From assembly GCF_009795715.1 (NCBI RefSeq), contig NZ_WTCR01000002.1, forward strand, positions 124,001 through 188,000: a stretch of DNA of 64,000 nucleotides, read 5' to 3'. The notes under the pieces were generated by a model. It saw only the letters and a program-made list of their open reading frames with translations. It did no database searches and was not told the origin of the DNA. The translations under genes and the position numbers were made by a program. Positions within the stretch are counted from its first letter, which is position 1. The number at the start of each line of letters is the position of its first letter. Positions 32,494-46,268 of the stretch are shown here, piece after piece. This DNA comes from Labilibaculum euxinicum. GTDB taxonomy: Bacteria > Bacteroidota > Bacteroidia > Bacteroidales > Marinifilaceae.

Positions 32494-33654
32494 TTAAAAG
32501 TAGTAACCAACATTGATATTGAAACGCATTTCCCAATCAGCATCCGGAGTCCCGGCAGCCAAAGCATTGGTCCATTCAGATCCTAACCAAGGTTGATTTT
32601 TACCCGCAGCCAAATCGAAATAGGTATAAATATTACCTGCGGTAAACATTGCACCCGTTACATTCATCATTGAACTTTCGAAACTGCTTTCAGCCTTATC
32701 CATGTATCCAAAATCGTTGTAGATAACCACATTCGATACAGGTCCCCATTCCAGAGGAATAGAGTAACTTAATCCAAGCGTATAGATACTTGCTTCGGCA
32801 GCAACCAAATAAGGAGCACCATAGGCAGTCATAGCAACAACATCATCACGTTCACCATCTGGATTCTCAGGACTGTATTTGTAATTGGCTATTTGAGCTT
32901 TTACACCAAATTTACCTGCTTTCAATTCGTAATATGCAGCAAGTGCATAATGGTTTCCAATTTCCTCAGTATCTATATTATAGAGGCCTCCGTATTGTGC
33001 AGATACACCCAAACGATGCTTTGCATTTGTATTGTTGATTTTATAGGACAAATCTCCATTCAGTTGATTTACCTCTTTATTTCTGAGAATCAAATTGCCG
33101 TCACTATTACTAATTGAGGCAACATCATAAGAATAACGGCTGTTGGAAACATCTGAATTATTTCCAAATTGAAGCTCTTCTGCATTTTTGAAGAATGCCA
33201 GACTGTAGTCCCATTTTTCACCCTGATGAGTATACTTCAAGCCCATATCGTGATCGTCTTCTAAACCAACATAGTAGTTTAAGCTAAAGAACCAGGAGTT
33301 TGAATTGTATGTTGTGATACCAAAAGGAACTTGGGTTAAACCGAATTGCAGTTCGTCGTTTTCATTAAAATCGTAGGCAATCCACCCTTGTTTCAACATG
33401 GCTCCACCAAAACTTTCGGAATAGAACCGATATTCTGCGTTTAGTTTTAAGCCCTTGTATTCTGCTTTGGCATTTAATCGGAATACATCGAAACCCAAAT
33501 CGCCGCCACGTTTTTGTTGGGCATCTTTCCAGGTAGAATTATTGTAATTGAAGCGTAGTGCACCACCAATGTCAACAGTCGCTTTTTCCTGTGCATATAC
33601 GGAAGTAGTGGACATAAGGAAACAAATCCCCAGCCACGTTTTTGAATAAAACAT
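32494..33654 (-). CDS. Outer-membrane porin-like beta-barrel of the betaine operon
   Basis: A 386-residue protein with a signal peptide (cleavage after VYAQ) and alternating beta-strand sequence throughout ('VDIGGALRFNYNNSTW', 'LKLNAEYRFYSESF', 'LQFGLTQVPFGITTYNSNSWFF', 'MGLKYTHQGEKWDYSLAFFKN') ending in an aromatic residue ('MRFNINVGYYF'), the outer-membrane insertion signal. It resembles the phosphate-selective porin O/P type. It is the first gene of a four-gene unit with proV, proW and proX, so it probably forms the outer-membrane route for betaine; the role is inferred from linkage. Confidence 0.82.
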   Translation of the reverse strand: MFYSKTWLGICFLMSTTSVYAQEKATVDIGGALRFNYNNSTWKDAQQKRGGDLGFDVFRLNAKAEYKGLKLNAEYRFYSESFGGAMLKQGWIAYDFNENDELQFGLTQVPFGITTYNSNSWFFSLNYYVGLEDDHDMGLKYTHQGEKWDYSLAFFKNAEELQFGNNSDVSNSRYSYDVASISNSDGNLILRNKEVNQLNGDLSYKINNTNAKHRLGVSAQYGGLYNIDTEEIGNHYALAAYYELKAGKFGVKAQIANYKYSPENPDGERDDVVAMTAYGAPYLVAAEASIYTLGLSYSIPLEWGPVSNVVIYNDFGYMDKAESSFESSMMNVTGAMFTAGNIYTYFDLAAGKNQPWLGSEWTNALAAGTPDADWEMRFNINVGYYF

Positions 33655-33859
33655 AAATGTAAATTAGATGAATATGACATGCAGAATATTGCATGCATGC
33701 AATTGAGTATCCATTTTCAAAACGGATATATAAGTATGTTTAATTGTAGGATGGAGGAAGGAATTTATCGGACAGAATTCTGAAAATAAGAAACTGAAAG
33801 CTATAGATTCTGGTATTCCTTTTATCGTGAAGTTCACTTGGTTTTAATCCCATAGCGTG

Positions 33860-33867
33860 CAAATATA
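33860..33867 (-). promoter_or_regulatory. -7 promoter motif of the porin-proVWX operon
   Basis: On the minus strand TATATTTG fits TAnnTTTG, leaving a ~200-nt leader before the porin start. No clear -33 element is seen. Confidence 0.45.
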
Positions 33868-34020
33868 GGCATTAATTATTTGCTAGTATAATAATTCGAG
33901 GGGTTTATAAATCAATTTCATTTTTAGATGGATCAACGACTGGCTTTTTACGGTTAAATTAAACCAGTATTATTGTTGGATTGAAAAAGGATAGAGCAGG
34001 TTCATATTTTCTTTGTATTC

Positions 34021-34222
34021 CTTCGTGCTTTGCACTCATCCCCACACTTCGTACTTTCGTGCTTTGCACTCATCCCTGCATTTCATACGTGGTTATTGAG
34101 CTTGAACCACTTCGTGGTTCGGATTGTGCGTAATCCCGAAGGGATTGAACCTGAATAAGCGCAGGTGCAAGCTACGGCTATGAGAGTAAAGAAGAGAAAG
34201 AAGCCCGAAAGGTGTTCAACAT
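34021..34222. repeat. Left hairpin-rich direct repeat flanking the REP transposase (decayed copy)
   Basis: About 200 bp closely similar, in the same orientation, to 34711-34922. It contains a 34-bp doublet (TTCGTGCTTTGCACTCATCC at 34022 and 34056), and hairpins at 34104-34120 (GAACCAC-TTC-GTGGTTC) and 34132-34146 (AATCCC-GAA-GGGATT). The two hairpins nearest the transposase are damaged compared with the right copy. Confidence 0.85.
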
Positions 34223-34669
34223 CTAAAACAAATACTTTTCCTCAAATTCAACATCATGCTCTTCCAGTAGCTGTATATACTCTTCACGATAGCTGAGTTT
34301 GGAGTGATGCTCTTTTTGATTCTTCACGTATGCAATCAGATTGTCTTTTGCTGATACATCATAGGTGAAAGCACCATAGCCTTCTTGCCATCCCGAAAAA
34401 TCGGGTAGGATATGGTTTGATTTGATGAAATCGCAGGTGCCAAGTTTTATGTCCTTCACTAAATTAGAAAGTGCAATTGCCGGGTGAAGATGCGTTACAA
34501 TATGGATATGATCTTCGACACCACCGATGCGATACAGGTGGCAATTCTTATTTACCAGTATTCCTCCGATGAAATGAAAAAGTCTTTCTCGATCGCTTTC
34601 TCTTAGTGTTTTATCTCTGTACTTGGTCGAGAATACAATTTGATAAAGGATTTGTGTATAGGTGCTCAT
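34223..34669 (-). CDS. IS200-like REP-associated tyrosine transposase (Y1 HUH)
   Basis: A 148-residue single-domain Y1 transposase. The HUH metal site is His54-Ile-His56 in 'VEDHIHIVTHLHP', and the catalytic tyrosine is Tyr114 in 'NLIAYVKNQKEHH'. 'QIVFSTKYRDKTL' and 'FSGWQEGYGAFTYDVS' are typical of the Bacteroidota group annotated as IS200/IS605 transposase. There is no TnpB. It is flanked on both sides by near-identical hairpin-rich repeats, which is the arrangement of RAYT (REP-associated tyrosine transposase) genes: these are thought to spread small palindromic elements rather than move themselves. The reading frame is intact. Confidence 0.9.
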   Translation of the reverse strand: MSTYTQILYQIVFSTKYRDKTLRESDRERLFHFIGGILVNKNCHLYRIGGVEDHIHIVTHLHPAIALSNLVKDIKLGTCDFIKSNHILPDFSGWQEGYGAFTYDVSAKDNLIAYVKNQKEHHSKLSYREEYIQLLEEHDVEFEEKYLF

Positions 34670-34710
34670 ATTTTATTGTTTTATTTTTGCTTCATACTAT
34701 CCCCGCTATC

Positions 34711-34922
34711 TTCGTGCTTTGCACTCATCCCCGCATTTCATACTTTCGTGCTTTGCATTCATCCCCGCATTTCATACGGGGTTATTGAGCTTGAACCACT
34801 TCGTGGTTCTGATTGAGTGCCGTGGTATAATCCCGAAGGGATTGAACCTGAATAACCGTAGGTGCAACCTACGGTTATGAATGTGTGAGAAGGAAAGGAA
34901 GCCCGAAGGGCTTCAACTTCGA
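34711..34922. repeat. Right hairpin-rich direct repeat flanking the REP transposase (intact copy)
   Basis: It has the same 34-bp doublet (34711 and 34745) and four perfect hairpins: 34793-34809 (loop TTC), 34829-34843 (loop GAA), 34852-34878 (12-bp stem, loop GCA) and 34899-34913 (AAGCCC-GAA-GGGCTT). The last ends about 18 bp from the stop codon of the neighbouring coiled-coil gene. Confidence 0.88.
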
Positions 34923-34930
34923 TAGTACGC

Positions 34931-35482
34931 CTATCGTGTAACCAGCACCCCAAGTAAAATTCCCACACCCACGCCAGCAATTCCGGTCAATACTTTCTGT
35001 CGGGTGGCATTCCATTTTTCTTTGCGGATCAGCTCATTGGCTCGATCGAGGTTTTGCATCGAAGTATTGAGAGATTGTTGTGTGTACTGCAATGTTTTTT
35101 GCGTGCTTTCCAACGATTTTTGGGTGTATTCGATAAAATTGAGAGTGGTTTTTTCGCTTTTTCTGCAGTTGGCCAATAGTTTGTTGTACGATAATTCGTG
35201 TTCCTCCAAACGGGTTTCGTAAGCCTTAAGCAGATTTTTGCATTCTATATTATCGTCTTCCAATGTGGCTTTGTGGATGCTCTTGTAAAACTGGTATCTG
35301 GTTTTATTAATCAGATACATGGTATCGCACATTACAACCAATGTATCTCCAACTACAAGCTGCAAGGGCGATTGGTTCGAGGTGCAATACTGAAGTGGAG
35401 CCTTTTTTAGACCCACGTGCTCCTGAGCGCCGGCAGTACAGCTAAATGCTAAAATAATCAGCAATAGTAGAGTGTTCTTCAT
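34931..35482 (-). CDS. Unrecognised exported coiled-coil protein with C-terminal membrane segment
   Basis: A 183-residue protein I do not recognise. It has a signal peptide (MKNTLLLLIILAFSCTAGA, possible lipobox Cys), a middle region rich in heptad-like repeats ('YTQKSLESTQKTLQYTQQSLNTSMQNLDRANELIRK', residues ~118-155) and a C-terminal hydrophobic Gly-rich helix ('VLTGIAGVGVGILLGVLV') before two charged residues. Thus it is probably periplasmic and anchored at its C-terminus. Its ATG overlaps the stop of the preceding coiled-coil gene by 4 bp, so the two are translationally coupled and probably form a complex. Confidence 0.7.
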   Translation of the reverse strand: MKNTLLLLIILAFSCTAGAQEHVGLKKAPLQYCTSNQSPLQLVVGDTLVVMCDTMYLINKTRYQFYKSIHKATLEDDNIECKNLLKAYETRLEEHELSYNKLLANCRKSEKTTLNFIEYTQKSLESTQKTLQYTQQSLNTSMQNLDRANELIRKEKWNATRQKVLTGIAGVGVGILLGVLVTR

Positions 35483-35850
35483 AATTCGAATGTGTTGGCG
35501 TATTTCTGCAGTTCTTTTTTCATTTTTTCTTTTTCCAGAATCTGCTCTTTTAAAACTTTCAGTTCTTCCTTATTTCGGGTTCTTCTTTGCAGTTCTTCCA
35601 ACTCGAGAATATCGCGTTCGTTTTTCAGAATTTTCAGCTCGTTTTCGGTAAACTCCAATTTGTTAAGCACAAGTGTTAAGGATTGCTGTGTTTTGCCGAT
35701 GCTGTCTTTTAAAACAGACAGTTCTTTGTTTACCTGATTGATGGCATTCTGCGTTTCTTTTAGTTTACTGTTGCCCGATACCACAAAGTAGAGCACCACT
35801 ACCACTAAAATAGTGAGCACAAGAGTAAGGGCATTTTTAAATTTTTCCAT
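35479..35850 (-). CDS. Unrecognised membrane-anchored coiled-coil protein
   Basis: A 123-residue protein with one N-terminal transmembrane helix ('ALTLVLTILVVVVLYFVVSG', residues ~8-27) followed by a nearly continuous coiled coil ('LKETQNAINQVNKELSVLKDSIGKTQQSLTLVLNKLEFTENELKILKNERDI...'). Topology and size resemble FtsL/FtsB-like or other bitopic coiled-coil proteins, but no family motif is seen. It overlaps the next gene by 4 bp (ATGA). Its partner also has a coiled coil and membrane segment, so hetero-oligomerisation is likely. Confidence 0.7.
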   Translation of the reverse strand: MEKFKNALTLVLTILVVVVLYFVVSGNSKLKETQNAINQVNKELSVLKDSIGKTQQSLTLVLNKLEFTENELKILKNERDILELEELQRRTRNKEELKVLKEQILEKEKMKKELQKYANTFEL

Positions 35851-35916
35851 AAAGAGTGGGGGATTGGTTGATGCTGTTTCCTGAAATATGTATTGTTTGA
35901 TGTGCGAAGTCAGTTG

Positions 35917-37302
35917 TTAGTTATTGATGGTGTTTTTTAAGAGAAAAATAATTTCTGACAGTTCAGCATTTTGCGCTGCCAGAATAAAATCCGGCAATAC
36001 ACCTTCAGTAAGTTTTCTGTTTCCGTATTGAACAAACTCTTTGGCCGAAACAACGAATTTTAGACCTGAACAGGGGAGTGTGAATGTTAAAAAATCGCCG
36101 TAATATTTTATTGTTCCTCCGGTAGGTTCACCAATAATTTGTCCGAGGTGATACCTTTTAACAGCTCCGGCAAAAGTGGCTGCAGCACTATTGCTTCTGC
36201 CATTTACTAAAACAAAAACCTTACCTGTAAATGGAGAATTGGTTTTGCGGGGTATCTGTATCAACAAACTGTCAGTTATGCGATAAAGCGAATCGACAGG
36301 AATATCGGCAATCAGTTTGTAAAAGTCTGGTTTACTCTTCTTGTATTTGCTTTTTAGTTCGAGGCTGGGGCGAACCGAAATGGATGAATACTGAGAGTAA
36401 GGTTTGCTTGTTAAATAATTTAGTAAACTATCAACACTGGAGCTTCTGCCACCAGGATTATCACTTACATCAATAATCAGTTTCCCGCACTTGTTTTCCT
36501 GTATGCTATCGAAAGCATGACTGAGAAAAGAAGCTAATTTTTCAGTATCGTAAAAGGAGGCAATTTTTAAACAGGCAAATTCATTGTTCTCAGAAAACTG
36601 CAGACCGAAAGACTTTTCCTCCTTAGGCGGATAGAACTTATTCTTTAGCTGAAAATACTTATCGTTAGTTACCGCTTTGCAAAGTACTGCAGAATTGAAG
36701 CCTGCTATTTTAAGTTCGTATTGCTTGGTTTCGCCGTATAACATCCAGTAACACATTGCAAAAAGCCGCTCAACCGATTTATCGCCGCTGGTTCCGTTTT
36801 TATTGCCTGCTAAAACCCTTACATCATGCAGTAGTTGTTTCGAATCAATCGAGTTGATGGACAGAAGTTCAGCACCTGCAATTCCATTTACGGCTTGTTC
36901 GGCAAAATATTCGTTTATATACAGCTTGTTGTTCCTTACCCGAATGCTAAACGGCATGCTAAGGCCTCCATTCTTCATGTAATTAATTCTTGTCGAATAA
37001 GGGAAATAAAGAGCAGTATGATCATCGTCCACCTCCGATAATAATTTCGATAGAGCTACAAAGCTTTCCACTTTACTGATACTATCGGACAGATGTCCGA
37101 ATAACAAATCGTATTTTGTCTGCCACTCTTTGGCGAAATCCTTATTCAAAAACTTAGGATGAACATTTGCCAGTTTCTGATGTAAAAACACAAGATCTTG
37201 CTCCATTTCCTGTTTTGCGAAATATTGGGGTACATACTGCTGGGCCGTAACAAACTGTTGCAGGCAAATGCACATTAATACAAGACTAAGTGTTCGTTTC
37301 AT
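35917..37302 (-). CDS. S41-family (C-terminal processing-like) serine peptidase, exported
   Basis: A 461-residue protein counted from ATG 37302, where a classic signal peptide begins (MKRTLSLVLMCICLQQFVTAQQ). A GTG at 37335 overlapping the stop of the previous gene is an alternative that would put 11 polar residues before the signal sequence. The S41 core contains 'GKLIIDVSDNPGGRSSSVDSLLNYL' and 'GKVFVLVNGRSNSAAATFAGAVKRYHLGQIIGEPTGG', with the nucleophile Ser in 'NGRSNSAAATF' and 'GEPTGG' as in tail-specific proteases; a 'VDDDHTALYFP' segment matches the N-terminal domain. Probably a periplasmic peptidase; the target is unknown. Confidence 0.82.
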   Translation of the reverse strand: MKRTLSLVLMCICLQQFVTAQQYVPQYFAKQEMEQDLVFLHQKLANVHPKFLNKDFAKEWQTKYDLLFGHLSDSISKVESFVALSKLLSEVDDDHTALYFPYSTRINYMKNGGLSMPFSIRVRNNKLYINEYFAEQAVNGIAGAELLSINSIDSKQLLHDVRVLAGNKNGTSGDKSVERLFAMCYWMLYGETKQYELKIAGFNSAVLCKAVTNDKYFQLKNKFYPPKEEKSFGLQFSENNEFACLKIASFYDTEKLASFLSHAFDSIQENKCGKLIIDVSDNPGGRSSSVDSLLNYLTSKPYSQYSSISVRPSLELKSKYKKSKPDFYKLIADIPVDSLYRITDSLLIQIPRKTNSPFTGKVFVLVNGRSNSAAATFAGAVKRYHLGQIIGEPTGGTIKYYGDFLTFTLPCSGLKFVVSAKEFVQYGNRKLTEGVLPDFILAAQNAELSEIIFLLKNTINN

Positions 37303-37331
37303 GATTTTCTGAATTCGTGACTGACTTATTT

Positions 37332-37844
37332 TCACTTTTTCAATTGTTTAAGCCATTCATCCCGATCGTTCAGCACCAAATCGTATTTCGTATTGTCTTT
37401 TGTTACTACCCGCAAGCCATTGTCCACAATTCGGCTTGTTTTTCTTTTACTGATTTCTGTAATCTCACTTAAGTAGATAGATGTTTCACCCTTTTGGAAA
37501 TTGTATTTGTGAGGGCTGAAAATCAATCGTTTATTGGTTAAAAACAACTTGCCGCCAACAGCTACCCAAGTGCCGCTAAACAAATTGGCACCATCTTCAT
37601 AAATAATAATTTCATCATCCTCCATTTCCGGAGTTTTAAGCTTAGAAAGCATTTTTGGCACGAGTTTTTCCATTACAAAAGGAAAGCCTATCCCAAACAG
37701 AATTGTGAAAAGCAGGGTCTGATATAAAACACTCTTGATGGTATAAAGGTCAAAGAAGTAATTCAGAAGCATCAGTACAATTCCATAGGGGATGCCAGAT
37801 AACAAGACAAATATGATTCTTTGTTTAAAATTTAATTTTTTCAT
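37332..37844 (-). CDS. Membrane protein with GRAM/bacterial PH-like domain
   Basis: A 170-residue protein with two N-terminal transmembrane helices ('IIFVLLSGIPYGIVLMLLNYFF', 'VLYQTLLFTILFGIGFPFV') and a cytosolic C-terminal domain with the GRAM-like pattern 'ANLFSGTWVAVGGKLFLTNKRLIFSPHKYNFQKGETSIYLSEITEI' ('LTNKRLIF' is the most diagnostic stretch). Such domains bind lipids or mediate protein contacts. It precedes the S41 peptidase gene with almost no gap. Function unknown. Confidence 0.7.
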   Translation of the reverse strand: MKKLNFKQRIIFVLLSGIPYGIVLMLLNYFFDLYTIKSVLYQTLLFTILFGIGFPFVMEKLVPKMLSKLKTPEMEDDEIIIYEDGANLFSGTWVAVGGKLFLTNKRLIFSPHKYNFQKGETSIYLSEITEISKRKTSRIVDNGLRVVTKDNTKYDLVLNDRDEWLKQLKK

Positions 37845-37968
37845 TTAGTTTTGTTGATTGTTAATGGATGGTGTTTGGTTCTGTTTCCAACACTTGGACT
37901 TGACTGTTGAGCAATATCTATTATTTAAACTTGCTAATAGGTTTAGTTGAAGAGTCTAATTAGGATTT

Positions 37969-38880
37969 TTATATATTTCTTGTAAATTCATTTTCTGATA
38001 AAATCTCAATATCTGATCCTTGTTCAATATATTTAATTGCTTTCTCTTGTTTATTGCTCATACCATCTTCGCCTACAACTCTATAATCTTGTTGTCCAAC
38101 AATTAAATAGTCTGTTGATTTGGTAATACTGTTTCCATTTATTCCACCAATATCGGCAATCAATTGTTGTGCATCTTTTCGGATCATTGAAGATAATGTT
38201 CCTGTAAAAACAATGGTACGGCCATAAAAAATGCTTTCTTTATTATGTTTTTGTGGGTCACCAATTATTTTTTTTAAATCTATTGTTTTTGACGATTTCT
38301 TTGTATCTGATGGCTTATAGCCACCTGAAAACAATTTGCCAATATTTGTTCTTAATTTATCAGGAAAGTCTTCCTTTGATTGGACTCCAGCCTTTTTTAA
38401 TGCTTTAATAGTAAGCTCCGCTGTTGCCCGACTATCTGACTCCGCTCTGTGATGTTTGAATTTAATATTGTTATGATTGCATAAGGTTTTTAAATCATAG
38501 CCGGGGAGTCCAAGCCAAACTTTTTTAGAAAAGATATAACTACAAGAATACTCTAATTCAGGAAATGGAATATTATATGTTTCAAGTGTTTTTCTTAAAA
38601 CGCTAAAATCAAAACTTGCATTATGGGCAATCAAAAACTGGTTTTCTATTAATGGTTTTATTTCGTGCCATACTTCATCAAATTCTGGCTTTTTTGCAAC
38701 GTCTTCTGGATTTATACCGTGAATTGAAATATTGAAATAATCAAATTCATTATTAATTGGCTTGATTAGCCATGATTTACTTTCTACAATTTCAAAATTT
38801 TTCACGAAGGTTAATCCTATTTCACAAGGACTATTTCTTTGTGATGTGGCTGTTTCAAAGTCAATAGTTATAAAATCCAT
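37969..38880 (-). CDS. DEDDh 3'-5' exonuclease (DnaQ-like) fused to a BRCT domain
   Basis: A 303-residue protein. Residues 1-165 are a DnaQ-type exonuclease: Asp7 and Glu9 in 'FITIDFETATSQRNSPCEIG', Asp91 in 'LIAHNASFDFSVLRKTL', His144 and Asp149 in 'HHRAESDSRATAELT' give a full DEDDh set. Residues ~216-298 are a BRCT domain ('GRTIVFTGTLSSMIRKDAQQLIADIGG', 'ITKSTDYLIVG', 'NKQEKAIKYIEQGSDIEILSENEF') of the DNA-ligase/RFC1 type that binds DNA ends or nicks. It follows a DUF6119/TIGR04141-like gene by 34 bp on the same strand. The pairing suggests a DNA-targeting accessory or defence cassette. The exonuclease-BRCT fusion itself is known as a general repair-type protein. Confidence 0.88.
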   Translation of the reverse strand: MDFITIDFETATSQRNSPCEIGLTFVKNFEIVESKSWLIKPINNEFDYFNISIHGINPEDVAKKPEFDEVWHEIKPLIENQFLIAHNASFDFSVLRKTLETYNIPFPELEYSCSYIFSKKVWLGLPGYDLKTLCNHNNIKFKHHRAESDSRATAELTIKALKKAGVQSKEDFPDKLRTNIGKLFSGGYKPSDTKKSSKTIDLKKIIGDPQKHNKESIFYGRTIVFTGTLSSMIRKDAQQLIADIGGINGNSITKSTDYLIVGQQDYRVVGEDGMSNKQEKAIKYIEQGSDIEILSENEFTRNI

Positions 38881-38914
38881 ATATGTTTATATTTTTTACT
38901 GAAATATGACTATG

Positions 38915-40696
38915 TTATTTGGAAATTTCGGTAATTCTAAAATCAATTGCTAAGCTTCTCATGTTTTTAACAAGCTCATGAAGAGAAAATTTAGCAATGT
39001 TAGAATCATATTTTTTAATGTTTTTAAAATCTCTTTTAGTTGTGGCAGTATCTAATACAGCTAAAACAAAAATTAGTTTTCTTTTTTTGAAAAGATGGAT
39101 AAATTCTTTTTCTGTTATTTTATTTAATTGATTTTTAGCATTCAACATATATGTTGACTTTCCCTTAGTATTTTTAAGGCTATTATACATTTTAGTTAAA
39201 AAAGAATAGCCGTCTTTTGAATCTTCTTTGATTCTTCTTGCCGCAATATGTATTTGATGACTTAAGTCCCTCATAGAATTATCAAAACCTGCTTTTACAT
39301 GAATTAAATAGATATTTGAACTATCCCAATGTAATATATCACACGCTTCTATATTTTCAGGAGTGATTTTGTCAAATACTAAAAAATTTTGTTTTCCAAT
39401 GTGTTTTGCATTGAAATCATTCTCTTTTTCTAAGGAGTAATTCCATTTTTCCAGTGCTTTATTAAATCTATTATCATTAATAAATGACTGACATTGTTCA
39501 TTTAGTTTTTTCGTAAAACTGTCTTTAATCTCATACCATTCTTTATCTGCTAAAAAGTAACTTTTGTTTTGATGATAAATTTCTGTATAAAAATGATTGC
39601 TTAACAAGTCGGATGTAAGTAAATCTCCATCATTTGTTTTACATTCTATATGTGCTCTTGAAATAAGAGTGTTCAATCTGTCTTTTGATAAATTTGAATC
39701 ATGAGATTTAATATCATCGAGTATTGTTTGGATGTTTTGTAAAGGTTTTTCAAACTCCTTTCCTAGTTCTTTATTATTGAGTTTGTACTTTAAAAAGCAA
39801 GTATCTGCATGAAGGTATTTATCAAAGTCTTTATGACATAACTCAATACTTATTTCACTTTGTTTGTTTTGGTACTTTTCTAAGATGGACTTACTTATCT
39901 TTTTTTCGAGTTTTGAAATTAATACTTTTTCAGTTTTGTTCAGTTTTTTAACAGCATTGATTTCCACAATCGGATCCACTGTATCTATAAGGTTTTCACA
40001 CCTTTCAATGATTGATATCAATTGATTGAAGGAAATCGATTTCTTAATACTGAAAGAATTTTTTGCAACACAAAGGCATTCAGAGTCAATCTCTTGCTGA
40101 CTAAAACCAAAAATTTTAATTAAAAGTTTTCGATTTAAAGAAGAATGTAGTTCTTGGTAAAAGTTTCCGAAACTTTCATTTTCATTTAAATTATATTCAT
40201 TTCTGAAAAATTTAACTTCTCCAAGTATACCTCCTGTTAAATTTTTTTCTTTAGTGGAACGCAAAGTTTTATCTTCTGCTTTAACTATTCTTGATAGAAT
40301 TTCTATTCCAAAATCACTTTCCGCAACACTTTGAAGAGCTGTATGCCCAAAGCCACCTGTTGTTGCATATACAATATCGCTTTTTATATTGCGGAGAAGG
40401 AGAATGTAGTTTTCATTATTAGTGCCTTTATGTTTTAAGATATCTTGATTTGAATCAGCAATTTTACTTATAAAATCTTTCCATCTAATTTTTGAGGGTG
40501 TTCTTTTAAAAAATAAATGAATTTCAAAAATGTCAGATAGGTTTGGTTGAACTATTTGCGATTTGTATTTTTTCTCACGGAATAGTTTAGTCAAATAAGT
40601 GATATCAACCGTCTGTTTTTTAGGTAGATTTTTTTTATCTATTTCAACTATTTCATTTTTGAGGCGATAAATGCCTACTTGTAAGTTTTCTGACAT
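38915..40696 (-). CDS. DUF6119 / TIGR04141-like sporadically distributed protein
   Basis: A 593-residue protein resembling the 'sporadically distributed' TIGR04141 (DUF6119) family: N-terminal 'VGIYRLKNEIVEIDKKNL', 'SKIRWKDFISKI', 'NENYILLLRNIKSDIVYATTGGFGHTAL' and 'DFGIEILSRIVKAEDKTLRSTKEKNLTG'. The C-terminal region holds 'ACDILHWDSSNIYLIHVKAG' (451-470), where Asp453 and Lys468 could be part of a PD-(D/E)xK-like nuclease core; that is inference. Family members are patchily spread and often lie in accessory or defence regions. The gene is markedly AT-rich and lies upstream of a DnaQ-BRCT gene with a 34-bp gap. The product is cytosolic; biochemical function unknown. Confidence 0.7.
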   Translation of the reverse strand: MSENLQVGIYRLKNEIVEIDKKNLPKKQTVDITYLTKLFREKKYKSQIVQPNLSDIFEIHLFFKRTPSKIRWKDFISKIADSNQDILKHKGTNNENYILLLRNIKSDIVYATTGGFGHTALQSVAESDFGIEILSRIVKAEDKTLRSTKEKNLTGGILGEVKFFRNEYNLNENESFGNFYQELHSSLNRKLLIKIFGFSQQEIDSECLCVAKNSFSIKKSISFNQLISIIERCENLIDTVDPIVEINAVKKLNKTEKVLISKLEKKISKSILEKYQNKQSEISIELCHKDFDKYLHADTCFLKYKLNNKELGKEFEKPLQNIQTILDDIKSHDSNLSKDRLNTLISRAHIECKTNDGDLLTSDLLSNHFYTEIYHQNKSYFLADKEWYEIKDSFTKKLNEQCQSFINDNRFNKALEKWNYSLEKENDFNAKHIGKQNFLVFDKITPENIEACDILHWDSSNIYLIHVKAGFDNSMRDLSHQIHIAARRIKEDSKDGYSFLTKMYNSLKNTKGKSTYMLNAKNQLNKITEKEFIHLFKKRKLIFVLAVLDTATTKRDFKNIKKYDSNIAKFSLHELVKNMRSLAIDFRITEISK

Positions 40697-41356
40697 ATTT
40701 ATTTGATTTAATTAAAGGATTATAAAATCAATACGTTTTTATTCTCTATCGTTAATCAACTTTCAAAATGAAATAATGGATTATATAATTCCAACGCTTT
40801 TCCTTATGCGATCCCCAAGGTAAGCATAAAAATAAAAGTACAAGTGTTTTTGTTTATTAGAATCAGTCCTAATAATTGTTTTCAGGTTAAGTGGCCGCTT
40901 GCACTTGCACAAAGTGTTTGTCGCTATTTCTGATGAAGGGGCAATTATTTTGTTTTGAAAGAATGGTGTTGTTAGTCAGTAATTTTGTGCTGTTTGTTTT
41001 ATTGGTTCGATTTTAAGTCTTATTTGTTGGTTCGGCATCTGTTTAACTGTAAAAACAAAACAAATGTATTTTTTTTTCATCCTGCCCGAGAGCGCATGTT
41101 TACTTGGTTTTTTGCAAAAATATGACATAATAATTGGGGTGTGCAATAAAAAAACATGTATTAAAATTAATATTGTTCAATTATTATTTTCTAACTTAGA
41201 AACCGTTTTGTTAAGGAGAATGACTCGGCCGAGGCATTTAGTTTCATAAAAAGGAAGTGTAGAAGAAGTTGGGGGAGGATGAAACCAGCAAGCATCATCA
41301 GTGAAGGGTATATTATTGTGCTTAAATTGAGGAATGCCCATGTTTAAAGGGTTTTC
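40697..41356. other. ~660-bp AT-rich gene-free region
   Basis: Upstream of the DUF6119-like gene and before the 42-bp repeat array. It contains short open frames on both strands but none with codon use or motifs of a real protein. No strong promoter or hairpin was identified. Confidence 0.5.
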
Positions 41357-41359
41357 GCG

Positions 41360-41700
41360 ATGGTAATAGTGTCCTCGCTTTGGAGCGAAGGTGTTTTGAG
41401 CATAATAATAGTGTCATTTGCAGACTGCGAAGGCGTTTTTTTTATTGTAAAAGTATTATCGCTTTGGAGCGGAGGTATTATTGGCATAAAAAAGGTGGTT
41501 TTTACTGGTGCGAATGCCTTTTTTCTAATCCAAAAGCTGTTTCGCAGCAATGCGAAGGGGGTTTCGAAATGAAAATGGAGTCATCTGCTTGGTGCGAAGA
41601 TACTTCCGACATACTGATACCTGCTTCGCTTTGGAGCGAGAGCATTATCGTCCTAAAAATGGGGCAATGGAACAAATGCGAAGTGAGTATTGTGTATTGA
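41360..41700. repeat. Degenerate 42-bp tandem repeat, eight units
   Basis: A recurring GCGAAG/GCGGAG anchor occurs at 41385, 41427, 41469, 41510, 41552, 41594, 41636 and 41678, that is 42 bp apart (one step of 41). Three units carry the short palindrome CGCTTTGGAGCG. The period equals 14 codons, so long open frames run through it (14-residue repeats such as SSLWSEGVLSIIIV), but the single-base step breaks the frame. It ends 58 bp before the next gene. Confidence 0.85.
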
Positions 41701-41757
41701 TTTACTGTCTTCGCTAATTAAATTGAAGGTTTTTATCGAATTTTAAAGTATAAGAAA

Positions 41758-42495
41758 ATGAAAATTGAGGGTTTTAGTATAAGTAGATTCAGAAATGCTG
41801 AATTTGTATCGTTGGGAAGTGATGTAGTTGCAATTACCAAATCGTACGATTGGGTAGGGCTTGGTATTCCTGGTTTTTATACCCGGGTTGAAACCAGTTT
41901 GAATAATTTGGTGGTTCAGTTGAATAAACTGAATACGACAACAGAAACTGCCGGAGCGGGTCTTGCCGACAAGCAGTTTAACAATGCATGGAGGGCTTTA
42001 AAGTACATTTGTTTGTGTTACGAGCTGCATCCGAATGAGGATAAGCGCAAAGCCGCTGCTGTTTTAATCAATTTGAGTAAAACGCATGGCTACAATTTGC
42101 ATCAGGAGAGTTTGCAGGAACAAAATGCAAAAGCAAAAATGTTTTTAGCCGATTGCGAAAATGTAGAGGAAGCAAAATTGGCAATACAGCAATTGGGAAT
42201 TAAAGATATTGTTGATAATGTGCAAATTGCCTTGGATGCGCTTGTTTTGATTCTTGATGAACGAAACAGTAAAAATGCGGATCAGAAACGTGAGAACGAC
42301 ACCAAATTATTTCGTAAGGAACTTACTGAAAGTTTAGATGGGATGTTTAAATATATGGAATCTATGTCGGGTTTGGTTTCGGGTGGCGAACTGGATACTA
42401 TGATTAAAAAAGTTAATGAGAGCATTCTGAAATTGGAAATGTCGCAAAATATGAGAGGCCGCCGCAAATCGGAAGAACTTGCTGAAACAGAATAG
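41758..42495 (+). CDS. Conserved-type hypothetical helical protein (possibly DUF6261)
   Basis: A 245-residue cytosolic protein with no signal peptide or membrane segment. The start 'MKIEGFSISRFRNAEFVSLGSDVVAI' and the largely alpha-helical body resemble the Bacteroidota DUF6261 family of unknown function; I am not certain of the assignment. The C-terminus is highly charged ('NMRGRRKSEELAETE'). The gene is enclosed by two repeat arrays, a 42-bp minisatellite upstream and four ~235-bp hairpin repeats downstream, and GC content is higher than in the preceding accessory genes. No function is proposed. Confidence 0.7.
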   Translation: MKIEGFSISRFRNAEFVSLGSDVVAITKSYDWVGLGIPGFYTRVETSLNNLVVQLNKLNTTTETAGAGLADKQFNNAWRALKYICLCYELHPNEDKRKAAAVLINLSKTHGYNLHQESLQEQNAKAKMFLADCENVEEAKLAIQQLGIKDIVDNVQIALDALVLILDERNSKNADQKRENDTKLFRKELTESLDGMFKYMESMSGLVSGGELDTMIKKVNESILKLEMSQNMRGRRKSEELAETE

Positions 42496-42556
42496 ATTTT
42501 TTAACATTGCAATGTTCCCCCTTACAGATGGTTAGCTGTAAGGGGGATTTTTTTTA

Positions 42557-43510
42557 AATCACCTCAACCCCGGCTTTTTTTCCTCAAGGAGAAGGGAGTA
42601 TTCTACATTCAAATTTCATACATAAGGAAGCTGCGTTCTCCTCTCCAGAAGGAGTGAGGTTCTTTGTATTGCGTTCGCACTTCGTTTGGAATTATTGGGA
42701 TTGGAATCCCTTCGCCTGTCGGCTCCGTGAAAGCTTTCGGGATCTCCTCAAGAAGGGAGGATTTTGTTTGTGTGGGGTTCTTTTTTGAAATCACCTCAAC
42801 TCCGGCTTTTTCCTCAAGGAGAAGGGAGTATTCTACATTCAAATTTCATACATAAGGAAGCTGTGTTCTCCTCTCCAGAAGGAGTGAGGTTCTTTGTATT
42901 GCGTTTGCACTTCGTTTGGAGTTATTGGGATTGGAATCCCTTCGGCTGTCGGCTCCGCGAAAGCTTTCGGGATCTCTTCATGATGAGAAGACTTTGTTTG
43001 TGTGGGTTTCTTTTTTTTTTGAAATCACCTCAACCCCGGCCCTTCTCCTCAAGGAGAAGGGAGTATTGCACATTCAAATTTCCTGCATTGGGAAGCTGTA
43101 TTCTCCTCTCCAGATGGAGTGAGGTACTTTGTATTGCGTTCGCACTTCGTTTGGAATTATTGGGATTGGAATCCTTTCGCCTGTCGGCTCCGCGAAAGCT
43201 TTCGGGATCTCTTCATGATGGGAAGACTTTGTTTGTGTGAGTTTCTTCTTTTTTTTTTTGAAATCACCTCAACTCCGGCTTTTTTTCCTCAAGGAGAAGG
43301 GAGTATTCCACATTCAAATTTCATACATAAGGAAGCTGTGTTCTCCTCTCCAGAAGGAGAGGGATAGGGTGAGGTCCTTTGTATTGCGTTCGCACTTCGT
43401 TTGGAATTATTGGGATTGGAATCTCTTCGGCTGTTGGTTCCGCGAAAGCTTTCGGAATCCCCTCAAGAAGGGAAAACTTTGTTTGTGCGGGTTTCTTCTT
43501 TTTTTAAGGG
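42557..43510. repeat. Four tandem copies of a ~235-bp hairpin-rich repeat
   Basis: Copies are anchored by CACCTCAA at 42561, 42792, 43026 and 43265 (spacings 231, 234 and 239 bp). Each contains CTCC-TCAAGGAG hairpins (best at 43040-43061, 9-bp arms), 'CTCCTCTCCAGAAGGAG', a block TTGCGTTCGCACTTCGTTTG, 'TTCGCCTGTCGGCTCCG' and the palindrome GAAAGCTTTC. Poly-T tracts separate the units. Long open frames through it repeat the same peptides in different frames and are not genes. Confidence 0.9.
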
Positions 43511-43536
43511 GAGATGTTCGAAGAACAAAGGAGCCA

Positions 43537-43782
43537 CTATCTTTTGTGATGTATCTCATAAGTTTTTTTCTCCACTTCACTATTCGATACCCCAATTTTG
43601 AAAACTATTGCAAAGCCTATTAAAAATATGAGTAAAGTGATCGCGAAATTTCGCCATGTTTTAGAGCTGCTATCGTAGGGGCCAGCCATTTCATCTGATA
43701 GTTTTCCTTTACAACCTTTAAAAAGCCAAACAACAAAGGCTCCAATAAATTGGACTAAAAAATCAAAAAACAGATCGCGCAT
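43537..43782 (-). CDS. Small hypothetical membrane protein
   Basis: An 81-residue protein with two likely transmembrane helices ('FLVQFIGAFVVWLFKG' and 'NFAITLLIFLIGFAIVFKIGV') joined by a polar loop, with a charged C-terminus. I do not recognise a family. It lies 23 bp downstream of another small membrane protein gene on the same strand, so they may form an operon. The ATG at 43782 is the only sensible start. Confidence 0.55.
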   Translation of the reverse strand: MRDLFFDFLVQFIGAFVVWLFKGCKGKLSDEMAGPYDSSSKTWRNFAITLLIFLIGFAIVFKIGVSNSEVEKKTYEIHHKR

Positions 43783-43805
43783 TGGGGTGTTTATATTTAT
43801 TGAGA

Positions 43806-44342
43806 CTAATTGATTTCCATGTTAGATATACTTTCTTCTATTGCAGCATTTTGTACTTTGTCCGATGTAATTTCCAAATACAAATCGTTGAATAGATACA
43901 AAAGGAATACAGTCAGCAGGTTTAAATAGATGTAATACTCTTTATCCGAAACATTCAACATGATTGTAAATGTTGATGTTATTCCAAGATCGAAATTGAA
44001 AAGAAAACCTTCTGTAAAATTAAAGCCAACATTAAATTTTGCTCCCGATACAAAGAAATACTTGTAGCCACCAAAAGCTATACTTACTAGTTGTAATATC
44101 TGCGATACCATAGAAACGATTATTCCTGACCTGTACTCTTTTTTTAATAGTAAAGTTCCTGCTTTTAGTGAAAGTAAGTACAGTCCTATTGCAATAAATA
44201 AGATAAGGAGTAAGGGGCCGTTAATAGTTCCAGTTCGGAATAGTAAGACGGCAATTATATAGAATCCCATGATTGCACCAATAATTTGGTAAATGCCGAG
44301 GATTAAAAGAGTTATTTCTGCAGATTTAATTCTGATTTTCAT
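43806..44342 (-). CDS. Hypothetical membrane protein
   Basis: A 178-residue protein with four to five hydrophobic segments ('ITLLILGIYQIIGAIMGFYIIAVLLF', 'GPLLLILFIAIGLYLLSL', 'GIIVSMVSQILQLVSIAFGGY', 'IYLNLLTVFLLYLFNDLYL') and a short acidic tail. No family recognised. Located upstream of the 81-aa membrane protein and downstream of a GNAT gene, all on the minus strand. Confidence 0.7.
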   Translation of the reverse strand: MKIRIKSAEITLLILGIYQIIGAIMGFYIIAVLLFRTGTINGPLLLILFIAIGLYLLSLKAGTLLLKKEYRSGIIVSMVSQILQLVSIAFGGYKYFFVSGAKFNVGFNFTEGFLFNFDLGITSTFTIMLNVSDKEYYIYLNLLTVFLLYLFNDLYLEITSDKVQNAAIEESISNMEIN

Positions 44343-44415
44343 AGGTTAATTTGTTGGGTGTTAAGAGTTGTATTTTATTCCTGTCTCAAAGCATTTTTTT
44401 TTGATTTTAGCTGAC

Positions 44416-45270
44416 TTACAATTCCATTATCATTTCAAACTGTTTCCCGCTAACTAAAATTGAGTTTGATTTAAGAAACTCCGTAATCGACCCGCACTCT
44501 ATTTCCGCATTGATGCATTTTATGGAGTTGTGTTGATTCAATTTCACCATTTCTTTAAGAAGCAGGCTGCCAATGCCTTTTCGTCTGTGTATTGGTTCAA
44601 CAGCAATTTGGGTAATGTCGCCCGATTTAGCTTCAAAAATACCATAAGCCAATAGTTGCTCTTCCTTAAATACTCCCAGTAGAGTAAAATTATCCGGTTT
44701 TCTTGATATGGCTTCGAAACTATTTTGCCAGGATGGTATGAAGTCGCAGAATGAACTCTGTTTTTCGGCTTGCGATAAATCGATTGGCTTAAAAGCATAG
44801 GCAGGATTTAATTTCATGGAATCAACTTTTATGTCCTCATTTTTCTGAACGAAATAGTTGAACTCACGGCTCACGCAAAAGCCCAGCTTTTTATATACTG
44901 ATATTGCTTTTGTATTGTGCTGCAATACCTCCAGCAAGTACTGAAAAATACCCGCCTCTTTTAAAAATGGAATGGAGTAGTTGAATATTTTGCCGGCCAA
45001 TCCTTGTCCCCGATATTCTTTGACAGTTCCGGTTCCGGTATCGTAGGCCATTTTAGTTCCGTTAAAAGAACCGATTCCATTGCAGGTAAAAGCTACCAAT
45101 TTATTGTCATCAAATGCGCCAAAAGATAGTTCGGGAAGGAATCCTCTGCGGTGCAGCATGGTTTTTAATTCCTCACTGTCTAATTGTATTTCATAATCGT
45201 TAAATGCCTGGCTAAAAGCTTCGAAAAGCTCAGGAAAACGAATTCCTGCCAAAGATTTTATTGTAATCAT
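44416..45270 (-). CDS. Tandem GNAT-family N-acetyltransferase
   Basis: A 284-residue protein made of two GNAT domains. Domain 1 (~1-140) has the acetyl-CoA motif A 'AYDTGTGTVKEYRGQGLAGKIFNYSIPFLKEAG' and 'AISVYKKLGFCV'. Domain 2 (~150-284) has 'ITQIAVEPIHRRKGIGSLLLKEMVKLN'. The family acetylates amino groups of small molecules or proteins using acetyl-CoA. The second domain ends early and lacks a clear motif B, so only one of the two may be active. The substrate is unknown. Confidence 0.87.
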   Translation of the reverse strand: MITIKSLAGIRFPELFEAFSQAFNDYEIQLDSEELKTMLHRRGFLPELSFGAFDDNKLVAFTCNGIGSFNGTKMAYDTGTGTVKEYRGQGLAGKIFNYSIPFLKEAGIFQYLLEVLQHNTKAISVYKKLGFCVSREFNYFVQKNEDIKVDSMKLNPAYAFKPIDLSQAEKQSSFCDFIPSWQNSFEAISRKPDNFTLLGVFKEEQLLAYGIFEAKSGDITQIAVEPIHRRKGIGSLLLKEMVKLNQHNSIKCINAEIECGSITEFLKSNSILVSGKQFEMIMEL

Positions 45271-45485
45271 GATCAGCTAACTTGTTTTAAATGAAGTGTG
45301 ATTTCGAATTTATCAAAAGCTCTCTGATAAACAAAACGTGCAGTATAATTAATTGGTAAAATGGCTTGGTTGTTTCTAATTTGGATTTGTTATGAATATC
45401 TATTTAAAGGATTGGATGTTATTTTCTATTGTACAAAGTGATAAAAAGCTGTAACTTAAGTTTTATTCACCTAAAACTGGTTGTT

Positions 45486-46268
45486 ATGAAAAAAATACTA
45501 CTATTTGTTATTATGGTATTGTTTTGCGGTGCAGGTATTGCACAGCAAGAGCGGTTTCTGGTTTTTGAATTCATGAAAGTTCCCAACGATCAGGAAACGA
45601 ATTATTGGGAGACAGAAACTTTTTGGGAAAAAATACATGCTGAACGCCTTAAAAGCGGAGAAATTAAAGGTTGGGATTTATGGTCATTAAAACCTGGTGG
45701 AACAGAGCAGGGCTATCAGTATGTAACGGTGACTATTTATGACGATCCGGTAAAAGCTTTATCGGATGGAGATGTGTGGAGTGCAGCAAAAAAAGCTTAT
45801 CCTGCCATGTCGGATGAGGAATTAAGGAAAGCATTGCAGAATGGTGAGAAATCAAGAGAACTTAGTAAAAGAATGTTTTTAAAAGTAATTAAGACCACGG
45901 ACGATAATTTTAAAATGGATTTAGGAACTGTTATGCGAATGAATTTTATGGAGGCTGCCAAAGGTAAAACAGATGAGTATGAGAAGGCTGAGATAAATCT
46001 TTTTCTTCCAATGCATCAGGAAAGAGTAGAAGCCGGAAGTATGAGCCATTGGGCTTTGGCAAGAGTACTGATGCCTTCGGGCAGTAAAGTTCCGACTACT
46101 CATATGACTTTTGATATGTTTAAAGATTATCTTCATTATTTTGATGCCTATGGCCGTAATGAAGTATTTAATGTTGATGCCGAAACTCAAATGAAAATAG
46201 ATGAAGCAGTAAAAACAAGAGATTTGAATTGGACTTATTTGGGAACCTTGAAGAAAACTGTAAAATAG
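45486..46268 (+). CDS. Exported protein with two similar alpha/beta-barrel-like repeats
   Basis: A 260-residue protein from ATG 45486, which opens with a signal peptide (MKKILLFVIMVLFCGAGIAQQ). A TTG at 45429 would add 19 residues in front and is less likely. The mature part is an internal duplication: 'FEFMKVPNDQETNYWETETFWEKIHAERLKSGEIKGWDLWSLKPGG' and 'VMRMNFMEAAKGKTDEYEKAEINLFLPMHQERVEAGSMSHWALARVLMPSG' align along their length (M/FM-V/EA, Y-E, W/FLP, ER-K/EAG, W). This suggests a dimeric alpha-beta-barrel (ferredoxin-like) pair. The location is periplasmic; function unknown. Confidence 0.75.
   Translation: MKKILLFVIMVLFCGAGIAQQERFLVFEFMKVPNDQETNYWETETFWEKIHAERLKSGEIKGWDLWSLKPGGTEQGYQYVTVTIYDDPVKALSDGDVWSAAKKAYPAMSDEELRKALQNGEKSRELSKRMFLKVIKTTDDNFKMDLGTVMRMNFMEAAKGKTDEYEKAEINLFLPMHQERVEAGSMSHWALARVLMPSGSKVPTTHMTFDMFKDYLHYFDAYGRNEVFNVDAETQMKIDEAVKTRDLNWTYLGTLKKTVK

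Follow-up and report, generated by a model that had tools for sequence, protein, structure and literature searches.

The window analysed here is a stretch of 64,000 nucleotides from Labilibaculum euxinicum (contig NZ_WTCR01000002.1, positions 124,001 to 188,000). It contains two adjoining genes on the minus strand, one for a protein of the DUF6119/TIGR04141 family and one for a DEDDh exonuclease fused to a BRCT domain, which are separated by an intergenic gap of 34 bp (38881-38914) and lie between a GRAM-domain gene and a DUF6261 gene (Table 1). Over the gene pair the GC content is 26.5-30.5% (1-kb windows) as compared to 36.6% in the whole window, and the GC3 values of the DUF6119 gene (0.207) and the exonuclease-BRCT gene (0.204) lie below those of eight neighbouring genes (0.31-0.40). 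Thus, coordinates, gap and base composition all agree with the AT-rich island of two same-strand genes that a preliminary description of this DNA had delineated. As the gap is short, the strand is shared and the GC3 values are equal, the two genes may have arrived together and may share a transcript. Promoter-like sites show no excess between 37300 and 41800 (20 as compared to 20.7 in shuffled sequences), and an Rfam scan of 33500-46000 yielded no family at its threshold.

Table 1. Features of the locus; positions are those of the window.
Feature	Position	Strand	Evidence
DUF6119/TIGR04141 gene, 593 aa	38915..40696	-	PF19614 105.4 bits, TIGR04141 85.4 bits; AlphaFold mean pLDDT 89.9 (whole protein); candidate stand-alone defence nuclease
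DUF6119 N-terminal half, residues 1-243	39968..40696	-	VIA Z 5.5 (RnlA) and 5.2 (RdgC), weak; no Pfam family
DUF6119 C-terminal PD-(D/E)xK-like domain, residues 392-593	38918..39523	-	AlphaFold mean pLDDT 96.6; best VIA rows are nucleases
Codons of E450, D453, H466, K468 and Q481, putative active-site set	39254..39349	-	Invariant in 10 divergent members
Exonuclease-BRCT gene, 303 aa	37969..38880	-	PF00929 and PF00533; relatives on plasmids and phages with other neighbours
DEDDh exonuclease domain, residues 5-156	38413..38868	-	RNase_T 80.4 bits; D7, E9, D91, H144 and D149 invariant
BRCT domain, residues 214-283	38032..38241	-	PF00533 37 bits
Variable cargo slot	37847..40808	.	Same-genus homology breaks; right boundary good to about 15 bases
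GRAM-domain gene, conserved flank directly downstream of the slot	37332..37844	-	PF02893; 99% identical in G007
DUF6261 gene, conserved flank on the other side of the slot	41758..42495	+	PF19775; flank homology

A cargo slot beside a conserved GRAM-domain gene

The gene pair occupies a cargo slot for horizontally acquired genes just upstream of the conserved GRAM gene. At the left edge homology with two genomes of the same genus, G007 and G005, stops at 37846, i.e. two bases before the GRAM start codon, and at the right edge homology with four same-genus genomes restarts between 40796 and 40811. Among the eight other genomes of the genus the slot is uninterrupted in four and broken by a contig end in G008 and G001, and G003 and G006 have no GRAM match. 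The cargo is swapped from genome to genome: G004 contains an 851-aa AAA_13 protein that matches the PADLOC candidate PDC-S06 at 1334 bits, G002 a 154-aa remnant of a PDC-S06-type ATPase gene, G005 a 193-aa protein with a DUF5041 match, and G007 a 607-aa DUF6119 protein that is 23-26% identical to that of the window, depending on the alignment used. In all five slots, that of the window included, the main cargo is oriented toward the GRAM gene. Next to the slot G007 and the window share a GRAM protein with 99% and a GNAT protein with 100% identity, with only 77% identity in the DNA just right of the slot. The DUF6119 protein of G007 comes without an exonuclease relative, and in a tree built by a quick method, with long branches flagged, it and the window protein belong to different supported clades, which would fit separate arrivals.

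Three further observations concern the surroundings of the slot. At 34223-34669 the window has a gene for an IS200-like Y1 transposase, where the G007 locus has no match and the adjoining DNA matches at 95%. Near the slot (42548-43505) a 230-bp unit is repeated four times in tandem, pieces of which match several places in same-genus loci, and just upstream of the DUF6261 gene (41346-41662) there are short diverged repeats with a TCGCTTTGGAGCG core.

Family, fold and putative active site of the DUF6119 protein

The family was named correctly in the preliminary description, as in a Pfam/NCBIfam-type search the protein exceeds the curated cut-offs of both PF19614 (27 bits) and TIGR04141 (35 bits). 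Its patchy distribution is likewise borne out: the family is present in 4 of 59 genomes among the relatives. Of 395 genomes from the whole phylum, a protein search found it in 7 and the Pfam model in 11 (10 of these 11 over the family cut-off); the window's own genome is counted each time. A housekeeping role in repair that is conserved across relatives, named earlier as an argument against a defence function, was not seen. A tblastn search of plasmids with the window protein gave no match, the 24 plasmid records with DUF6119 having been found with the protein of G012 as query, and blastn of E. coli genomes with DUF6119 DNA from Vibrio gave no match either. In the tree the window protein lies in a supported clade of 12 rows, among which are a Zixibacterial, a Parcubacterial and an alphaproteobacterial one, and its branch is separate from that of the plasmid members. 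A possible fusion was noticed in a 1177-aa Chlamydiae ORF (L168:1062-4592), which contains a stretch like DUF6119 residues 422-555 and matches no Pfam family at E<=0.001. In the literature searched, no description of a function for DUF6119, TIGR04141 or PF19614 was found, and at E<=0.1 no PADLOC family matches the protein.

The AlphaFold model is confident, above all in the C-terminal domain (Table 1). Foldseek found no PDB match at E<=0.001 for the whole model or for the C-terminal domain, and nothing at this threshold in the viral library. VIA-align 2, a re-ranking look at Foldseek's list that covers the families in the VIA lists, ranks six structures highest for the C-terminal domain, i.e. 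Nt.BspD6I (Z 6.7), EndoMS (6.5), two contact-dependent-inhibition toxin domains (5.6 and 5.3), Card1 (5.1) and SfsA (5.1), all of which we take to be PD-(D/E)xK nucleases. Close behind follow an unrelated protease domain (5.0), CD38 (4.8) and then McrC (4.5). The reading as a nuclease-like fold is based on the agreement of the six best rows, the best Z of 6.7 being within the range of models without a known relative, where such values can arise by chance. The C-terminal model thus ranks PD-(D/E)xK nucleases best, at modest scores, and the structure search did not show the absence of a nuclease fold, which had been named as a counterargument. The likeness to CD38 (VIA Z up to 4.9) was taken as chance. 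The N-terminal half has weak similarity to RnlA (residues 10-126) and RdgC (residues 3-243).

Searches for a solved nuclease at the level of sequences and profiles gave little. phmmer with the window protein returned weak rows only, most of them thermonuclease and the best at E 0.088. A profile of the C-terminal domain returned two unrelated rows and a profile of divergent members none. Pfam searches with seven C-terminal and three N-terminal pieces (E<=10) found only DUF6119 itself and weak rows that we took as chance, and a comparison by hhalign with SfsA (six proteins) and HamA (four proteins), in small alignments, revealed no link to DUF6119.

An alignment of 10 divergent members that had not been chosen by motif, the others being 16-26% identical to the window protein, has 16 invariant positions, among them W72, E372, W387, D442, E450, D453, H466, K468, L478 and Q481. 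In another alignment the invariance of Y463, H466, K468 and F471 is partly built in, as its loci were chosen by the pattern [IL]Y[LFI][IVY]H[VI]Kx[GS]F. The patch between D453 and K468, to which the preliminary description had drawn attention as possibly PD-(D/E)xK-like, was located correctly, and neither residue varies among the 10 members. The arrangement is D453-x12-H466-x-K468, i.e. a His, itself invariant in these members, stands in place of the D/E of the literal D...(D/E)xK motif, and we therefore call the domain PD-(D/E)xK-like and not a member. D453-x12-H466-x-K468 may be a variant of this motif, with Q481 on the next helix.

The His where an acid is usual may also be read in another way, namely that the protein is a nucleic-acid-binding accessory of mobile elements, e.g. 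a factor for recombination or maintenance like RdgC, with a degenerate nuclease-like fold and no nuclease activity. The likenesses of the N-terminal half to RdgC (Z 5.2) and RnlA (Z 5.5) are in line with such a role, as are the many plasmid-borne DUF6119 genes and the one that adjoins a phage integrase. Nevertheless, E450, D453, H466, K468 and Q481 are kept without exception over a large divergence, as would not be required of a dead site, and the neighbours of the gene are rich in defence functions (see below), so that we regard this reading as unlikely.

Neighbours of the two genes in other genomes

Of the PADLOC models, 150 are matched at E<=1e-20 by the nearest genes to the sides of DUF6119 in the collected loci (146 scanned) and 19 by distant genes, more than 6.5 kb away (117 of 117 scanned), these counts being of models and not of proteins, as one protein can match several. 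The nearest-gene set comprises 146 of 149 genes (both genes of L155 and one of L150 were dropped), with loci L168 and L169 left out. Among the models listed, 25 of the 150 together with the table for the first member, are Drt4, PtuA, AbiEii, AbiTii, AriA, type IIG enzymes and PD-T4-6; some of the nearest genes are housekeeping genes, e.g. for KdpA, thiolase and urocanase. The results support a DUF6119 gene that is foreign, patchy and set in defence-rich surroundings. It has no fixed partner: by ORF clustering of 80 DUF6119 loci, 79 from a scan of genome contigs and one from a viral scan, no other family adjoins it in more than three. A gene of 375-405 aa lies directly beside DUF6119 in L128, L132 and L167, and a copy in the genome of L128 (L058:8021-9148) matches putAbiC.

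Among the 24 plasmid records, which hold divergent members, 12 annotated loci were viewed, a thirteenth being without annotation. In four of these 12, all alphaproteobacterial (L225, L226, L173 and L175), DUF6119 has hsdS on one side and hsdR on the other, with a gene for a SprT metalloprotease coming next, an arrangement that is possibly a type I restriction variant. Type I genes adjoin DUF6119 in two others and a NACHT gene in one, and the remaining five lack any such neighbour. The DUF6119 gene of G012, which is of the window's own family, is also inside a type I restriction operon, and in one Pseudomonas phage DUF6119 adjoins an integrase. The operons of the four plasmids and of G012 would be expected if DUF6119 functioned solely within type I restriction, as its subunit or modulator, stand-alone copies serving distant type I systems or being relics. 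Against this, none of the ten genes scanned in the window (34223-45270) is hsdM, hsdS or hsdR, the window branch is separate from the plasmid branch, any one other family adjoins the gene in 3 of 80 loci at most, and the stand-alone copies keep all invariant residues, which renders a role confined to type I systems very unlikely.

The second gene encodes the full DEDDh catalytic set and a BRCT domain, just as had been proposed from its sequence, and D7, E9, D91, H144 and D149 are invariant in 10 exonuclease-BRCT proteins. It meets three PADLOC models, all via the exonuclease domain. Exonuclease relatives are common, being present in 38 of 59 genomes of relatives, and most of the matches span the exonuclease part only; these apparently represent a shorter, ordinary protein that the window's genome encodes as well. 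Among the 59 genomes, matches running through the BRCT part are found in the window's genome and three others. The exonuclease-BRCT gene occurs in 24 plasmid records and in 47 phage records, 39 of the latter from Staphylococcus or Streptococcus phages. Its neighbours on the 6 of 24 plasmids viewed include DEAD-box helicases, ABC-three-component genes, a WYL regulator, toxin-antitoxin genes and, together with an integrase, a restriction gene of the DpnII family. In L089:5371-9961, from a Staphylococcus aureus plasmid that carries phage-type genes, the exonuclease-BRCT gene is flanked by the gene of an XRE-type regulator on one side and by a DpnII-family restriction gene, with an integrase behind it, on the other. 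The exonuclease-BRCT gene thus looks like a roaming, independent mobile accessory gene, i.e. separate mobile cargo. A literature search found no work that joins exonuclease, BRCT, anti-phage and DEDDh.

The preliminary description had taken the two genes as a candidate two-gene system, against which, by its own standard, the lack of a recurrent neighbourhood would speak, and this lack is what the searches show. In the ORFs of the DUF6119 loci an exonuclease relative is found in 0 of 80 cases (E<=0.001; likewise with profiles), and DUF6119 is found in 0 of 42 loci that carry an exonuclease relative (36 viral, three of which, L214, L221 and L222, match in the exonuclease part only, and 6 from plasmids); a distant partner might be missed in these counts, as the loci span up to 10 kb (DUF6119) or 8 kb (exonuclease) on each side and many are cut by contig ends. 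Likewise, 14 further DUF6119 neighbourhoods from genomes contain no exonuclease relative, although six of them apparently coincide with loci of the first set and G339 does not reach the family cut-off, and the 24 plasmid records of the exonuclease and the 24 of DUF6119 have no accession in common. A single defence or DNA-processing system, in which DUF6119 would cut or recruit and the exonuclease-BRCT protein would degrade from the end, has the 34-bp gap, the common strand and the equal GC3 in its favour, but the mutual absence of the families from each other's collected loci, the disjoint plasmid lists and the presence of DUF6119 alone in the G007 slot have led us to reject it as highly improbable. 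The two genes probably do not form a system by themselves. This negative result matters: the adjacency of two nuclease-like genes in one genome did not make a system.

Candidate function and comparison with known systems

What stands of the earlier defence reading is the part that concerns the first gene, for which the foreign, patchy occurrence, the defence-rich setting, the conserved patch and the PD-(D/E)xK-like model with its modest scores speak, and what falls is the union of the two genes. We therefore propose, with a probability of roughly 0.58, that the DUF6119 protein is a stand-alone nuclease-type effector against phages or plasmids that resides in a cargo slot, and that the exonuclease-BRCT gene is a separate mobile gene. 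The N-terminal half would sense or bind invading nucleic acid or a cue of infection, and the C-terminal PD-(D/E)xK-like domain, with E450, D453, H466, K468 and Q481, would then cut DNA or RNA. No methyltransferase was found among the ten genes scanned around the window DUF6119 gene, and we thus infer that self-protection would be achieved via a phage-specific trigger. This putative trigger may be modified DNA or a phage protein, as in type IV restriction or abortive infection. The exonuclease-BRCT gene would share the slot and perhaps the transcript with this candidate nuclease without being a required partner.

The family name DUF6119 is already public, and we regard the family as a candidate for defence nucleases. 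We can also imagine, as a tentative and so far doubtful extension, that DUF6119 constitutes a hitherto undescribed family of defence nucleases acting as single proteins and exchanged widely, with a variant site composed of D...HxK, E450 and Q481 and with its own N-terminal half for sensing nucleic acid or phage, which would travel alone between defence islands and would also be built into type I operons as an extra effector. If true, this would add a stand-alone nuclease family to bacterial immunity and possibly an extra effector to type I restriction. A family known only as "sporadically distributed" gains a testable role: residues are named, a fold class is likely, the setting is rich in defence genes, and cargo swaps can be compared in a slot within one genus.

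As to known systems, the second gene matches the PRK06195-type exonuclease-BRCT proteins (NF004844) over the whole length at 312.4 bits, below the curated cut-off of 373. PDC-S06 fills the slot of the window pair in G004 and is left as a remnant there in G002, but it is an unrelated AAA-type protein and has only the site in common with the window cargo. Compared with its own family, the window copy of DUF6119 likewise has the invariant residues of the divergent members, whereas it sits on a branch separate from that of the plasmid members, some of which are found in type I restriction operons. With PD-(D/E)xK nucleases such as EndoMS, Nt.BspD6I, Card1, SfsA and McrC the protein shares the top VIA ranks (Z 4.5-6.7) and the D and K of the motif, both invariant in DUF6119, but it differs from them in the His that replaces the acid before K and in having no significant Foldseek or profile match. 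The remaining classes for comparison are type IV restriction and stand-alone abortive-infection nucleases. Although PADLOC recognizes no member of either class in DUF6119, the gene resembles them in its general scheme, i.e. it is a single gene of patchy distribution in a defence-rich setting, with no methyltransferase among the ten genes scanned around the window copy.
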